Shown here: positions 2,541 to 6,868 of the stretch, one piece after another | Layout: every line of letters begins with the position of its first letter | How positions within the stretch are numbered: position 1 is the stretch's first letter | Assembly (NCBI GenBank): GCA_005883365.1 | Contig: VAXA01000223.1 | Location: forward strand, 1-6,868 | Direction: 5' to 3' | DNA length: 6,868 nt | From: Actinomycetota bacterium | GTDB taxonomy: Bacteria > Actinomycetota > Thermoleophilia > Gaiellales > Gaiellaceae | Notes under the pieces: generated by a model | The model's input: the letters and a program-made list of their open reading frames with translations, nothing else | Database searches by the model: none | Told to the model about the DNA's origin: nothing | Translations under genes and position numbers: made by a program

Positions 2541-3551
2541 CTAGAGGACCAGCTCGGCGAGCGTCCGAAGCGCCTCGGGCTGCGTCGTGCCGAGGACAAG
2601 TGTCGTGACGGGCGTCTCCCGCCACGCCTCGAGCCGCTCCGCGATCCGCTCCTTCGGCCCGACGAGAGAGACTGCGTCGACGAGCTCGTCAGGCACCGCG
2701 GCGATCGCCTCCCGCTGCTTGCCGGCGAGGTAGAGCTCCTGGATCCGCTCCGCCTCCTCCTCCCAGCCGTAGCGGCGGACGAGTGCGTTGTAGAAGTTTC
2801 GCCCCTTCGCGCCCATCCCGCCGACGTAGAGCGCGACATGGGGCCGGAGCGCGTCGCGGAGCGCCGGTGCGTCGTCGCCGACGAGGACACTCGCCGTCGC
2901 TGCGATCTCGAAGCCCGGCGGCGCGGCAGCGAGGCTCGGCCCGAACGCGTCGTCGAAGCGCTCGGGCGCGACGAAGATCGGCAGCCAGCCGTCCGCGATC
3001 TCGGCGGCGAGCGCGACGTTTTTCGGCCCGAGCGCCGCCAGGTAGATCGGGATCTCGGTGCGCAACGGGCGAAGCATCAGCTTCAGCGGTTTGCCGAGGC
3101 CGGTCGCGCCCGGGCCGTCCCAGGGGATCCGGTAGTGCTCGCCGTCGTGCTCGACGACCTCCCGCCGCAGCGCCGCGCGGACGATCTCCACGTACTCGCG
3201 CGTCTTCCCGAGCGGCTTCCCCCACGGCTGCCCGTGCCAGCCCTCGACCACCTGCGGGCCAGAGGTGCCGAGCCCGAGCAGGAAGCGGCCGTCGGAGAGG
3301 AGGTCGAGCGTCGCCGCCGTCATCGCCGCGTTCGCGGGGGTGCGGCCTGGGATCTGCATGATCGCCGAGCCGAGCTTGATCCGCTCCGTCCGCGCCGCCA
3401 GCCAGCCGAGGACGCTGACCGCGTCGGTGCCCCACGCCTCGGCGACCCAGACGGAGTCGAAGCCGAGCCGTTCTGCCTCGTGCACGAGTGGGAAGAGGTC
3501 GGCCGGGTTGGTGCCCGGCGGCGCGTAGCCGAGGCTGAGGCCCAATTTCAT
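2541..3551 (-). CDS. LLM class F420-dependent oxidoreductase (Rv3520c-like)
   Basis: A 336-residue luciferase-like (TIM-barrel) oxidoreductase, close to the usual length of the family. The sequence [12 protein letters not shown] forms the first strand. [31 protein letters not shown] (31-61) is the typical strand 2/3 region. [15 protein letters not shown] (69-83), [17 protein letters not shown] (91-107), [11 protein letters not shown] (168-178) and ADGWLP (186-191) are hallmarks of the F420 branch, and the overall pattern matches the Mycobacterium Rv3520c-type subgroup as I remember it. Such enzymes carry out hydride transfer with reduced or oxidised F420; the substrate is unknown. ATG 3551 is preferred because the fold begins there. 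An upstream ATG at 3590 would add 13 mostly basic residues and collide with the HelD start. The gene is first in a two-gene unit with the sulfotransferase and divergent from HelD. F420 use implies a host that makes that cofactor. Confidence 0.93.
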
Positions 3552-3588
3552 TGCGCCAGCGATCCTACGTCGGTACCGTCGGCGGGCC
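3552..3588. promoter_or_regulatory. 37-bp divergent spacer, overlapping promoters inferred
   Basis: Only 37 bp separate the start codons of the oxidoreductase (-) and HelD (+), so both promoters must overlap this spacer or lie within the opposite gene. On the plus strand TTGCGC (3551-3556), a 17-bp gap and TACCGT (3574-3579) form a weak -35/-10 pair whose start point would fall at or just before the HelD ATG, as in leaderless actinobacterial transcripts. On the minus strand TAGGAT (complement of 3562-3567) ends 10 bases before the oxidoreductase ATG. It could be a -10 box, or its AGGA could act as a slightly distant ribosome site. GGTACC (3572-3577) is a small palindrome. All of this is by eye and could be chance. 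Confidence 0.25.
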
Positions 3589-5556
3589 ATGGCGCACCCA
3601 GAGCTCGCAGCCGAGCAGGCCTACGTCGACAACGCGTACGAGCAGCTCGACCGGATGCGGTCGACCGTCGCGCGCACCCAGGACGCGATGGCCACGGAAT
3701 GGGCCTCCCTCAACATGGAGGCGTGGGCGAAGCGCCGGATGCGGACGTTCGAGGACGCCGAGCGCGGGCTCGTCTTCGGCCGACTGACGCTCGACGGGAC
3801 GCCGCGGCCGCTCTACGTCGGCCGCCGCTGGGTGCACGACGACGAGCACGAGTCGCTCGTCGTCAACTGGCAGGCGCCCGCCGCGCGGCCGTTCTACACG
3901 GCGACGCCGCAGGCGCCGCACGGAGTGCAGCAGCGGCGTCGCTTCCGCGCCGACGGCAGGCGCCTCCTCGACATCTCCGACGAGTCGCTCGACGGCAGCG
4001 CGGTCGAAGGCGCGAGCGTCTCGGACTTCCTGCTCGAGGAGCTCGACCGGCGCCGGGATGCCCGGATGCGCGACATCGTCGCGACGATCCAGTCCGACCA
4101 GTACCGGCTGATCACGGCCGAGCCCGAGGGCGCGCTCGTCGTGCAGGGCGGTCCCGGCACGGGCAAGACGGCCGTCGGCCTCCACCGCGCGTCCTGGCTC
4201 CTCTACACGCATCGCGAGCGGCTGCGCCGCGTCCTCGTCGTCGGGCCGAATCCGACCTTCATGGACTACGTCTCGCACGTACTGCCGACGCTCGGCGAGG
4301 AGGCGGTCGAGCAGCGGGCCGTCACCGAGCTGCTCGACGGGATCGAGGTCGTCCGCGAGGAGGAGCCGGACGTCGCGCGGCTGAAGGGCGACCCGCGGCT
4401 GCGCGAGGTGGTGGCGCGTGCGGTCGAGATCGCGGTCGTGCCCGCACCGGAGGAGCTCGTGACCCTCGTGGACGGCGTCTACGTGCGCGTGCGCGAGCGA
4501 GACGTCGCGGCCCTGCTGGACGAGGCTCTGGCGGCCGGCGCGCCGCTCGGGCTCGCGCGGGAGCGGTTCCGGATGGCCGTCCTCCGCCGCTTCTACGAGC
4601 GCTACGGCGAGCTGTTCGGCCCGCGCGCGTTGCGGAGCTTCGACGAGCTCGAGCGCGCCCTGCGGCGCGGCGGCTTCCTGACGCGCTGGCTCGACCGTGT
4701 CCTGCCCCTGCCGCAGCCGGAGAAGCTCGTCTCGCGGCTCCTCACCTCGCCGGCCGCGCTCGAGGCGGCGTCCGAGGGCGTGCTCGACTCCGACGAGCGG
4801 CAGCTTCTGCTGCGCGACCGGCCGCGCCGCATGGCCGACCTGCAGTGGAGCGACCAGGACGTGGCGCTGCTCGACGAGGCGCGGATTCTGTTGGCCGGAG
4901 CGCCGCGGGCATACGGGCACGTGATCGTCGACGAGGCGCAGGACCTGTCCCCGATGCAGCTCCTTGCGATCTCGCGGCGCGCAATCGACGGCTCGCTCAC
5001 GATCCTCGGCGACGTCGCGCAGGCCACCGGTCCCGTCGTCTACAGGCGCTGGCAGGAGCTGGAGCCGTACCTGCCGGACGAGGCCGAGCTCTCAATCGAG
5101 GAGCTCCGCCATGCCTACCGCGTCCCGGCAGAGATCATGGACTTCGCCCTCCCGCTGCTCGACCGGATCGCGCCGGAGGTCGAGCCGCCGCTCGCCTACC
5201 GCAAGGGCGGCGAGCCGCCCCGTCTCGTGCGCGTGGCCGAGGAGGAGCTCCTGGCGGCAGCGCTGAGCGAGGCCGCCGCGCTGGCCGAGCAGGACGGGCT
5301 GCTCGCGGTGATCGTGCCGCGCTCACTCGCCGGGCCGTTGCCGCAAGGCGATCTCTTCGATGAGCTCACCGTCCCGGTGCTGACGCCGCGGCAGGCCAAG
5401 GGCCTCGAGTTCGACCACGTGATCGTCGTCGAGCCCGCGGCCGTCGCGGATGACGAAGACCGCGGGCTGCGCGAGCTCTACGTCGCGCTGACCAGGCCGA
5501 CGAAGACGCTCGTCGTCGTCCACGCGCGCCCGCTGCCCGAGCCGCTCGGCCGCTAG
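3589..5556 (+). CDS. HelD-like (class II) RNA polymerase recycling ATPase, UvrD/Rep superfamily 1
   Basis: A 655-residue ATPase. Residues 1-60 form a charged N-terminal helical region ([19 protein letters not shown]), like the HelD coiled coil that enters the RNA polymerase secondary channel. [35 protein letters not shown] (63-103) is a HelD signature before the helicase core. Core motifs: a Q-motif-like segment around 163-171, Walker A GGPGTGKT at 187-194 (Lys193), Walker B VIVDEAQD at 445-452, GDVAQ at 474-478, [11 protein letters not shown] at 599-609, and LYVALTRP at 630-637 with the arginine finger. Residues about 260-430 form the HelD-specific insertion. HelD proteins pry stalled RNA polymerase off nucleic acid, and some actinobacterial relatives (HelR) protect against rifamycins; a role in resistance here is inference. 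At 655 residues it is somewhat shorter than the mycobacterial protein of about 740. It could be annotated generically as a UvrD-like or AAA family ATPase. The methyltransferase gene follows after 2 bp. Confidence 0.92.
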
Positions 5557-5558
5557 GC

Positions 5559-6242
5559 GTGTACGTCCCCGACCTGTACGAGGCCGAGCCCCGTCGCATC
5601 GAGGCGCTCGTCCCGCTCGACGGCGCCCGGATCCTCGAGATCGGCTGCGGAGACGGCCGGCTCACCGGGTTCGCAGCCGCGCGCGCGGCGAGCGTCTACG
5701 CGTTCGACCCGGACGGCGAGCAGGTGGCGGCCGCGCGGGGGGCCGTAGCGGCGCAGAGCGTGCGTTTCGGCGTGCATGGCGCCGATGCGCTCGATGTTGA
5801 GCGCGAGAGCTTCGACGTCGCGCTCTGCGGCTGGTCGCTCTGATGCGTCGAGCCCGCGGGCGTGGTCGACGCCCTGAGCCGCATCCACGCCGCACTCGTC
5901 CCCGGCGGCGTGCTCGTCGACACGCAGCCGGTCAGCGCCCGGCTGCGCGTCGCCCTGGGCGGCGAGGCGATCGGCGAGCTCGAGACCGACGAGTGGGTCG
6001 AGATCGTCGCGGCCGTGGACGCCGAGACCGAAAAGGCGTTCGCGTCGGGGCTCTTCGAGTCGCGGCACGAGGAGCGCTACGTCGTTGTGCACGAGTTCGG
6101 CTCCGGTGACGAATGTCTCGACGAGGTGGGAAAGTGGGCCGGAACCGTTGTCCCCGAGGGGATCGCAACACCCCTGAAGCAGGGCTCCGCGCGCGCCACG
6201 GTCGAGCACGACGTCAGGCTCCGGCTGCTCGCGCGCCGCTAG
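5559..6242 (+). CDS. Class I SAM-dependent methyltransferase interrupted by one in-frame TGA
   Basis: Starting at GTG 5559, two bases after the HelD stop, the first 94 codons encode the SAM-binding half: ARILEIGCGDGRL (motif I, glycines at 29-33), an acidic residue after strand 2 (YAFDPD, Asp50), GADAL (74-78) and FDVALCGWSL (85-94). Codon 95 is TGA (5841-5843). Codon 96 is TGC (Cys), and the same frame stays open for 132 sense codons to TAG 6240-6242, reading CVEPAGVVDALSRIHAALVPGGVLVDTQP, the normal continuation of a Methyltransf_11/25-type domain. No frameshift is involved. Read through, the product has 227 residues, a full-size small methyltransferase; stopped at the TGA, it lacks the last strands of the fold. 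The methyl acceptor is unknown. Options are selenocysteine at 95 (Sec-Cys pair), a recent nonsense mutation (pseudogene), a base error, or reinitiation at GTG 5862. Downstream codon usage still looks fully coding. No good ribosome site precedes GTG 5559, so coupling to HelD is likely. Confidence 0.75.
5845..5872 (+). promoter_or_regulatory. Stem-loop immediately after the in-frame TGA; SECIS-like candidate
   Basis: GCGTCGA (5845-5851) and TCGACGC (5866-5872) are perfect inverted repeats, giving a 7-bp stem that begins two bases after the TGA (5841-5843), with a 14-nt loop (5852-5865). Inside the loop CC/GG (5853-5854 with 5864-5865) and CG/CG (5855-5856 with 5861-5862) can extend the helix through a bulged G5852 and U5863, leaving an apical CGGG loop (5857-5860). 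Known bacterial SECIS elements sit just 3' of the UGA and carry a G early in the apical loop, which fits in outline. The loop lies about 13 nt from the UGA, a little closer than in E. coli fdhF. In GC-rich DNA such short stems arise easily by chance, so this is only a candidate. Confidence 0.25.
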
Positions 6243-6868
6243 TCGCCCGGGAAGAGCAGGCTGTAGCCGTAGCGGCGGACGCGGCGCTCGTACCACAGCG
6301 AGGCGAGGTCGAGGTAGGCGCGCATCCGCGGGTCGCGCTTCAGCTCCTGCCATTGCCGGAAGTATCGGTCGTTCGCTCCCTGCTCGACGGGCTCGCTCGG
6401 CGGGATCGGCTCGAGCTCGAGGAACTCGAAGATCTCGTGGAGCACGCCCGCCGGATCGGCGACGAGCTGCTCGTACTGGAGGACGTATACCCGCTCGAGG
6501 TGGTCGCGGTCCGCCTCGAAGAGCGCGTGACAGCGGAGCCAGTGCTCGAGCAGGCGGTGGTAGCGGCGAGTGCGCCGCCACCTCGCGGTCGCGAGCGAGA
6601 CCGGAATCGGGTGCCGGACGACCACGACGAACGAGGATGCTGGAAAGAGCGCCTGTAGGAAGCGCGTCTTGAGCAGGTTCGGCGGCGACTTCTCGAGCAG
6701 CATCGAGCTAGAGAGGTCCCAGTGCGGCGACCATTCCTCCCAGAGCGTTCTCGCGCTCTCCTCGGAGACGAGTGGCGAGTTCTCGGTCAGGTGCATCTCG
6801 GGCGCGAAGCCGAAGCGGCCAGGACGGCCGTACTCGTGGTCGCTCGGATAGACCCTCTGGAGGTGCTG
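6239..6868 (-). CDS. Sulfotransferase family protein, C-terminal part (5' end outside window)
   Basis: The minus-strand frame is open from the window edge to TAG at 6241-6239, giving 209 visible residues. An internal Met at 6796 is not taken as the start, because the 24 codons before it are open and read like the family (QHLQRVYPSDHEYGRPGRFGF). Features seen: LLEKSPPN at 57-64, LKTRFLQALFPASSFVVVVRHP at 66-87 (3'-phosphate-binding segment with the RHP arginine), LEHWLRCHALFEAD at 107-120, and VLQYEQLVADP at 129-139. The N-terminal P-loop for the PAPS phosphosulfate must lie beyond the window. The EKSPPN and VVVVRHPI pattern belongs to a subfamily different from the sulfotransferase at 1576-2529, and I recall such proteins near actinobacterial glycan genes. 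The acceptor is unknown. The gene converges with the methyltransferase and overlaps it by 4 bp. Confidence 0.88.
   Translation of the reverse strand, partial: QHLQRVYPSDHEYGRPGRFGFAPEMHLTENSPLVSEESARTLWEEWSPHWDLSSSMLLEKSPPNLLKTRFLQALFPASSFVVVVRHPIPVSLATARWRRTRRYHRLLEHWLRCHALFEADRDHLERVYVLQYEQLVADPAGVLHEIFEFLELEPIPPSEPVEQGANDRYFRQWQELKRDPRMRAYLDLASLWYERRVRRYGYSLLFPGD

Follow-up and report, generated by a model that had tools for sequence, protein, structure and literature searches.

We propose with high confidence that the gene at positions 5559–6242 (+) of the window, the whole 6,868-nt stretch of DNA analysed here, encodes a class I SAM-dependent methyltransferase that contains selenocysteine (Sec). 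The first-pass annotation had named a selenoprotein as a possibility, and this is now supported by a TGA at the same codon in 26/26 genomes of the class with a strong match, Cys in relatives, genes for SelA, SelB and SelD, and a SECIS-like hairpin. To the fuller reading, in which the Sec95–Cys96 pair of this methyltransferase binds a soft metal or metalloid such as As(III) near the SAM methyl group, we give an even chance.

The frame at 5559–6242 (+) opens with GTG and comprises 228 codons, its sole internal stop being the TGA at codon 95 (5841–5843, +), the predicted selenocysteine; read through, it yields 227 residues. Directly behind the TGA, TGC (5844–5846, +) encodes Cys96, the second member of the pair, and is the first of 132 sense codons that run to a TAG. 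The sequence had been read in the same way before, with both methyltransferase halves in one frame and split only by TGA at codon 95, and the frame and the Pfam domain agree with that reading: Methyltransf_25 (PF13649) spans the TGA, covering residues 25–117 with 59 bits against a gathering cut-off of 27. G+C per codon position is 0.81/0.51/0.90 on the 5′ side of the TGA and 0.79/0.46/0.92 on the 3′ side, compared with 0.80/0.45/0.95 in the upstream helicase gene, and none of the four other long frames of the window that are split by a single TGA carries this signature on both sides. The UvrD/HelD-like helicase gene used for comparison (3589–5556, +; 'HelD-like' being our label) ends 2 nt before the methyltransferase GTG, and no such helicase was found as a common neighbour among the 26 loci whose neighbourhoods were clustered. 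Elsewhere, the window holds two Sulfotransfer_3 family genes on the minus strand (1576–2625 and 6239–6868), a luciferase-like monooxygenase gene (2541–3590, −) and a PAS-LuxR regulator gene (516–1532, +).

A search with the read-through protein returned 24 matches in 23 of 103 genomes of the family (E ≤ 1e-20), all of which contain one or two in-frame TGA codons and no other stop. The TGA is the first codon past a WSL motif in 24/24, followed by TGA or TGC, and the in-frame TGA is therefore beyond chance, given that relatives carry it at the same codon. Profile searches were widened to the order (129 genomes) and the class (399 genomes), with two order families and one class family added. At E ≤ 1e-25 a match was obtained in 26 of the 399 class genomes, and the aligned codon is TGA in every one of them, which answers the proposal to look for a conserved TGA. 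The codon pair reads TGA-TGA in 18 of these genomes and TGA-TGC in 8, a count that includes one duplicate, the same gene in G079 and G092. Those two copies (L114, G079:C141; L138, G092:C156) share their neighbouring genes as well, although the two genomes are placed in different genera, which suggests mis-binning of a contig or a recent transfer. Among 396 genomes drawn from the phylum, seven had a match at E ≤ 1e-25, two of them already known; the five new ones read Cys-TGA (L140, L141, L142 and L143) or TGA-TGA (L144). In each of the 31 strong-match genomes, one or both codons of the pair are thus TGA, and TAA or TAG occurs at either codon in 0/31. Cys stood at both positions of the search profile, which therefore did not select against Cys-Cys genes. 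Five weaker TGA-free matches (E 5e-17 to 1e-15) are not informative on the pair: four end before it or lie past it, and the other (L104) is another methyltransferase, which does not have the motif. One genome (G096) also has a second copy of the gene near 17.5 kb of contig C57 (L035) with no readable N-terminal half and TGA-TGC kept, apparently a decaying paralogue.

The predicted SECIS-like hairpin lies at 5857–5875 (+), 20 nt after the TGA, with a stem formed by 5858–5863 and 5869–5874 around the loop GGTCG (5864–5868); the outermost pair of the family consensus (5857–5875) is not formed in the window. As set out in the available text of PMC13188914, the bSECIS model has a loop of 3–9 nt, a stem of 4–16 bp, a G in the first two loop positions, a UGA-to-loop distance of 16–37 nt and a minimum free energy of at most −7.5. 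The window falls within all of these limits (loop 5, stem 6, GG, 20 nt, −11.8 kcal/mol), as do 23 of 25 aligned sequences, the window included; L031 and L134 fall outside the energy limit only. Loops are spaced 20–21 nt from the first TGA and 17–18 nt from the second, both within 16–37. Numbered from the T of the TGA, columns 17–23 pair with columns 29–35, 98.3% of the hairpin cells across the 25 sequences are paired, and sliding the partner columns lowers pairing to 23–51%. Both sides have changed in 3 of the 7 pairs, which was equalled by 7/500 column shuffles that retain relatedness; the covariation score was equalled by 0/500 and the number of pair types, which is not above the shuffles, by 500/500. 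In synonymous shuffles of 22 sequences, with the protein fixed and codons redrawn from family usage, 0/1000 reach the observed mean pairing of 6.91 of 7 (shuffle maximum 6.5) and 0/1000 the observed stability of −9.4 kcal/mol (shuffle minimum −7.8). All seven pairs form in 20/22 observed sequences, compared with 35% of single shuffled sequences, so the protein sequence alone favours the hairpin. The two codons flanking the loop are GTC GTG in 21/22 sequences and GTG GTC in the window. The same hairpin was not folded in L033 (G044), which has one extra codon and was left out of the hairpin alignments together with L140–L144 and the duplicates L010, L015 and L016.

The genome from which the window derives (G000; 2.15 Mb, 310 contigs, 78% complete) encodes SelA (504.7 bits), SelB (325.8 bits) and SelD (327.8 bits), all above their NCBIfam cut-offs. 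Genes selA and selB share contig C170, with what we read as an O-methyltransferase-like frame between them, and selD is on C283. It had been proposed to look for selC as well, and here the outcome is divided, since an intact tRNA-Sec was not found in this genome using either RF01852 or a search with a tRNA-Sec of the same genus. The latter query matched with its first 40 nt at 93% on the contig carrying selA and selB (C170:10989–11028), anticodon TCA included and with a variable arm that folds. In this tRNA-Sec-like locus (L047, 10989–11090) the T-arm and 3′ acceptor strand are unrecognisable and no normal T-arm is found nearby, the cause being either assembly error or decay. RF01852 gave 13 matches in the genome, of which the eight with loci are tRNA-Ser, -Arg, -Leu and -Trp genes, so the over-cut-off match is a tRNA-Ser. 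The window itself gave nothing at the Rfam gathering threshold, and ARAGORN found no tRNA in it. Across the family, ARAGORN called tRNA-SeC for 30/30 of the best RF01852 matches, and SelB is found in 61 of 103 genomes, comprising 18/23 genomes with the methyltransferase and 43/80 others (Fisher p 0.029, phylogeny and genome completeness ignored). Counting either SelB or tRNA-Sec, the latter by our own cut of RF01852 matches spanning 91–93 nt among the matches listed, raises this to 21/23 against 50/80 (Fisher p 0.006, again ignoring phylogeny and completeness). The two methyltransferase genomes with neither match are G016 (91% complete) and G102 (72%).

An AlphaFold2 model with Cys at the TGA position is an ordinary class I methyltransferase (mean pLDDT 91.8) in which residues 95–96 lie between a strand (85–91) and a helix (99–112). 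The loop that follows strand 4 in class I methyltransferases lies next to the SAM methyl group. Foldseek and VIA-align returned numerous class I methyltransferases, tied in score and pointing to no particular function; the matches listed do not include ArsM, an absence that excludes nothing. Alignment by hhalign to five ArsM and ArsM-like proteins placed residue 95 on Cys156 of the canonical ArsM of L130 (98.1% probability overall), the similarity being confined to residues 21–119; the alignment has a gap of 3 residues adjacent to the pair and may therefore be out of register there. Cys156 in turn corresponds to Cys174, as numbered from the alignment, of PDB 4kw7, which we take to be CmArsM. 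The available part of PMC3877260 reports that Cys174 ligates As in CmArsM.

Frame clustering of the 26 loci identified DsrE-like (6), MBL-fold (4), MFS transporter (3) and LysR regulator (3) genes alongside nine methyltransferases. Several of these neighbouring methyltransferases are ArsM-like, with an in-frame TGA of their own in the motif WTG-U-IAG. An ArsM-like gene, as identified by motif, adjoins the methyltransferase in L113, L114, L128, L132, L136 and L138 and stands one gene off in L129, giving 7/26 loci in total, the copy in L136 being without the U-x-x-G stretch. No WTG-U-IAG gene was found nearby in 19/26 loci, including the window, and many loci stop at contig ends. We call the neighbouring gene ArsM-like and not ArsM because its 222.8 bits fall short of the ArsM cut-off (263). 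The ArsM-like gene is present in 29 of the 103 family genomes, and 30 of its 32 matches contain one TGA, two partial ones having none. Its TGA-bearing form occurs in 16/23 genomes with the methyltransferase against 13/80 without (Fisher p 2.5e-6, ignoring phylogeny and completeness), and the association holds within SelB genomes (12/18 against 4/43). In the window's own genome, the ArsM-like gene at L139 907–1686 (−) on contig C126 has an in-frame TGA (LWTG-U-IAG) followed by a predicted hairpin and is likely a second selenoprotein.

Other arsenic- and selenium-related genes were also observed near relatives. In L130 (6407–9567), a Sec-Sec methyltransferase gene lies near genes for a class V aminotransferase, a canonical ArsM (276.7 bits) and an ArsR regulator, and in L129 a rhodanese-ArsR gene is found near the methyltransferase. 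In some relatives (L114 3331–4221, −; L134 near 67, −; L138 5499–6389, +), a divergent second ArsM-like gene with a TGA (WAG-U-VAG) lies no more than a few kb from the methyltransferase. The neighbouring LysR regulator of L128 (10687–11676, +) has as its best NCBIfam match the selenium metabolism-associated LysR family, at 174.9 bits, below the cut-off of 250. Overall, these neighbourhoods suggest a metalloid chemistry that depends on selenium in Thermoleophilia, of which very few species have been cultivated according to the available text of PMC6544083.

In the mechanism that we propose, SelB and Sec-tRNA-Sec would read the hairpin and insert Sec at codon 95; in the TGA-TGA relatives, Sec would be inserted at codons 95 and 96, with one hairpin serving both UGAs. 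The pair would occupy the loop that follows strand 4, the site of the As-ligating Cys174 in ArsM, and could form a vicinal selenolate–thiolate or diselenolate ligand that presents the metalloid for methylation, possibly as part of a pathway shared with the ArsM-like selenoprotein and the DsrE-like protein. We infer the metal(loid)-ligand reading from the alignment of residue 95 with the reported As ligand of ArsM, and, once Sec is granted, consider a metalloid role for the pair to be about evenly poised. The first-pass annotation had suggested a redox- or metalloid-linked enzyme; gene neighbours and the ArsM alignment favour the metalloid part, as a prediction. Tentatively, and at just short of even confidence, we extend this to a broader scheme in which two adjacent UGAs are both read as Sec under one coding-region SECIS hairpin, producing a diselenol metalloid methylase that is partnered with Sec-containing ArsM-like and DsrE-like proteins in a selenium-dependent metalloid pathway, with Sec-Sec, Sec-Cys, Cys-Sec and Cys-Cys versions coexisting in nature. 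SelB would then have to act twice at spacings 3 nt apart, which poses a direct question on bacterial Sec decoding, and the UU, UC, CU and CC versions that occur in nature offer a ready-made experiment on the benefit brought by each selenium.

A redox or a thiol- or selenol-directed role is almost as likely as that of a metal(loid) ligand. The protein would still be a true selenoprotein, with a pair that acts as a selenenylsulfide or diselenide redox switch or that takes part in the methylation of thiols, selenols or persulfides, a reading that we place somewhat below even. Vicinal Cys/Sec pairs are well suited to redox switching, and sulfur chemistry is indicated near some relatives by the DsrE-like genes (6/26 loci), the MBL-fold genes (4) and the rhodanese-ArsR gene of L129. 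However, the strong association of the methyltransferase with a TGA-bearing ArsM-like gene and the alignment of residue 95 to the As-ligand position of ArsM both argue for the metalloid.

Readings that dispense with selenium can be weighed against database relatives, for which we collected 234 proteins (the best 120 of 241 and the best 120 of 2615 matches, and so not a random sample), called hypothetical or UbiE-like in those cases in which the source gives a name. Among the matches listed, 35 are full-length (at least 170 aa) and have Cys-Cys (27), Trp-Cys (5), Arg-Cys (1) or a broken motif (2) at the pair, so that the Cys in homologues that had been put forward as a check is found in 27/35. 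Together with TGA-TGA, TGA-Cys and Cys-TGA in DNA, these Cys-Cys proteins document Sec/Cys exchange at both codons, while Trp in five full-length relatives and Arg in one at position 95 count against a Sec reading. Another 86 of the listed proteins are shorter than 110 aa and represent N-terminal halves, 78 ending exactly at WSL and eight at WSL-Cys, and 113 of 110–169 aa are mostly C-terminal halves, 107 of them starting with VVDAL or MVDAL just past the site.

These C-terminal pieces are what would be expected if the TGA were a real stop and the gene two cistrons, the C-terminal half re-initiating at GTG 5862 to give a two-chain methyltransferase, and gene callers do place a start there. We consider this very unlikely, since the methyltransferase domain would be broken internally, at a motif that is invariant in 22 aligned relatives, only TGA and neither TAA nor TAG is used in the 31 genomes, TGA-free relatives have Cys, and the hairpin is present. 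Under the Sec reading, such half-length proteins are to be expected from gene callers that treat UGA as a stop, the eight N-terminal halves ending WSL-Cys fit a Cys-Sec order, and the enzyme is mis-annotated in databases as two pieces. Decoding of the TGA as Trp, or near-cognate read-through without selenium, is similarly improbable. It could draw on the Trp at codon 95 in 5/35 full-length relatives, but all five (P0004–P0008) come from one source, jgi, Trp is absent at the second codon, Cys dominates and TGG is found at codon 95 in 0/31 genome loci. Gene callers that allow genetic code 4 would translate TGA as W, and this is possibly the origin of the five Trp residues. Least probable of all is the nonsense mutation, decay or base error that had been offered as the competing explanation, for while the window comes from one draft genome, its relatives carry TGA at the same codon in 26/26 class genomes, which refutes a lesion as the general explanation, and the C-terminal half is open and conserved; the TGA at 5841–5843 is very probably no lesion.

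Comparison with described selenoproteins points to a new family. A 2026 review counts 119 prokaryotic selenoprotein families and subfamilies, and in its available text the Sec methyltransferases are ArsM with UxxG, ArsM fusions, MduS and UXPK-star; the accessible part of its table has no UU motif and no entry for the methyltransferase described here (PMC13188914). No such protein appears in the available portions of PMC5029168, PMC12013277, PMC9312934, PMC2398784, PMC7435645, PMC2375036, PMC1242214 and PMC1794560, and our literature search, within the accessible text of its sources, returned no report of this methyltransferase family or of a bacterial Sec-Sec motif. On this evidence, the methyltransferase probably represents a new selenoprotein family with Sec-Cys in the window and Sec-Sec in most relatives, the Sec-Sec variant being one that we did not find in print for bacteria in the text available. 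No NCBIfam family listed for the window reaches its cut-off, and membership of MduS, ArsM and CpaM was rejected on this basis. The best NCBIfam score was that to the corrinoid protein-associated methyltransferase CpaM (NF043040), at 51.7 bits with a cut-off of 180.

As is proposed for the protein described here, ArsM (NF008823, UxxG) is a class I SAM methyltransferase with Sec replacing Cys, and selenoprotein ArsM is listed as experimentally verified in the available text of PMC13188914. However, Sec in ArsM is part of a U-x-x-G motif further downstream, whereas here it is predicted in WSL-U-U/C after strand 4; a C/U-x-x-G motif, present in the ArsM-like genes, was not found after residue 120 of the translation. 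The 20 families that the window matched at E ≤ 0.01 do not include ArsM (cut-off 263), against which the relative L017 scored 26.8 bits. MduS (NF045649) has a methyltransferase domain with two Sec, as predicted for the TGA-TGA relatives, but its listed motif is CxxU, and against a cut-off of 380 the window scored 17.7 bits and four relatives 25.5–39.7. MduS reportedly goes back to Haft and Tolstoy 2025, and its features are given here as described in PMC13188914. The fusions ArsM/AhpD (NF041537) and ArsM/DUF2284 (NF041536) are methyltransferase selenoproteins with 2–3 Sec and short names ending in UU, but their motifs, as listed in the available text of PMC13188914, are UxxG and CxxU and not adjacent Sec; relatives scored 17.9–35.9 bits against the former (cut-off 510) and 21.5–30.8 bits against the latter (cut-off 575). 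An algal selenoprotein methyltransferase, which we liken to the present one by its description, also contains Sec and is termed a homologue of a bacterial selenoprotein in the accessible parts of PMC2375036 and PMC7539508. Consecutive Sec-Sec, as predicted for the TGA-TGA relatives, occurs in the GUGUU motif of the algal PDI_e, which the available text of PMC7539508 calls the first motif of this kind. That protein is a eukaryotic protein disulfide isomerase, whereas in the methyltransferase described here one coding-region hairpin would serve two adjacent UGAs.
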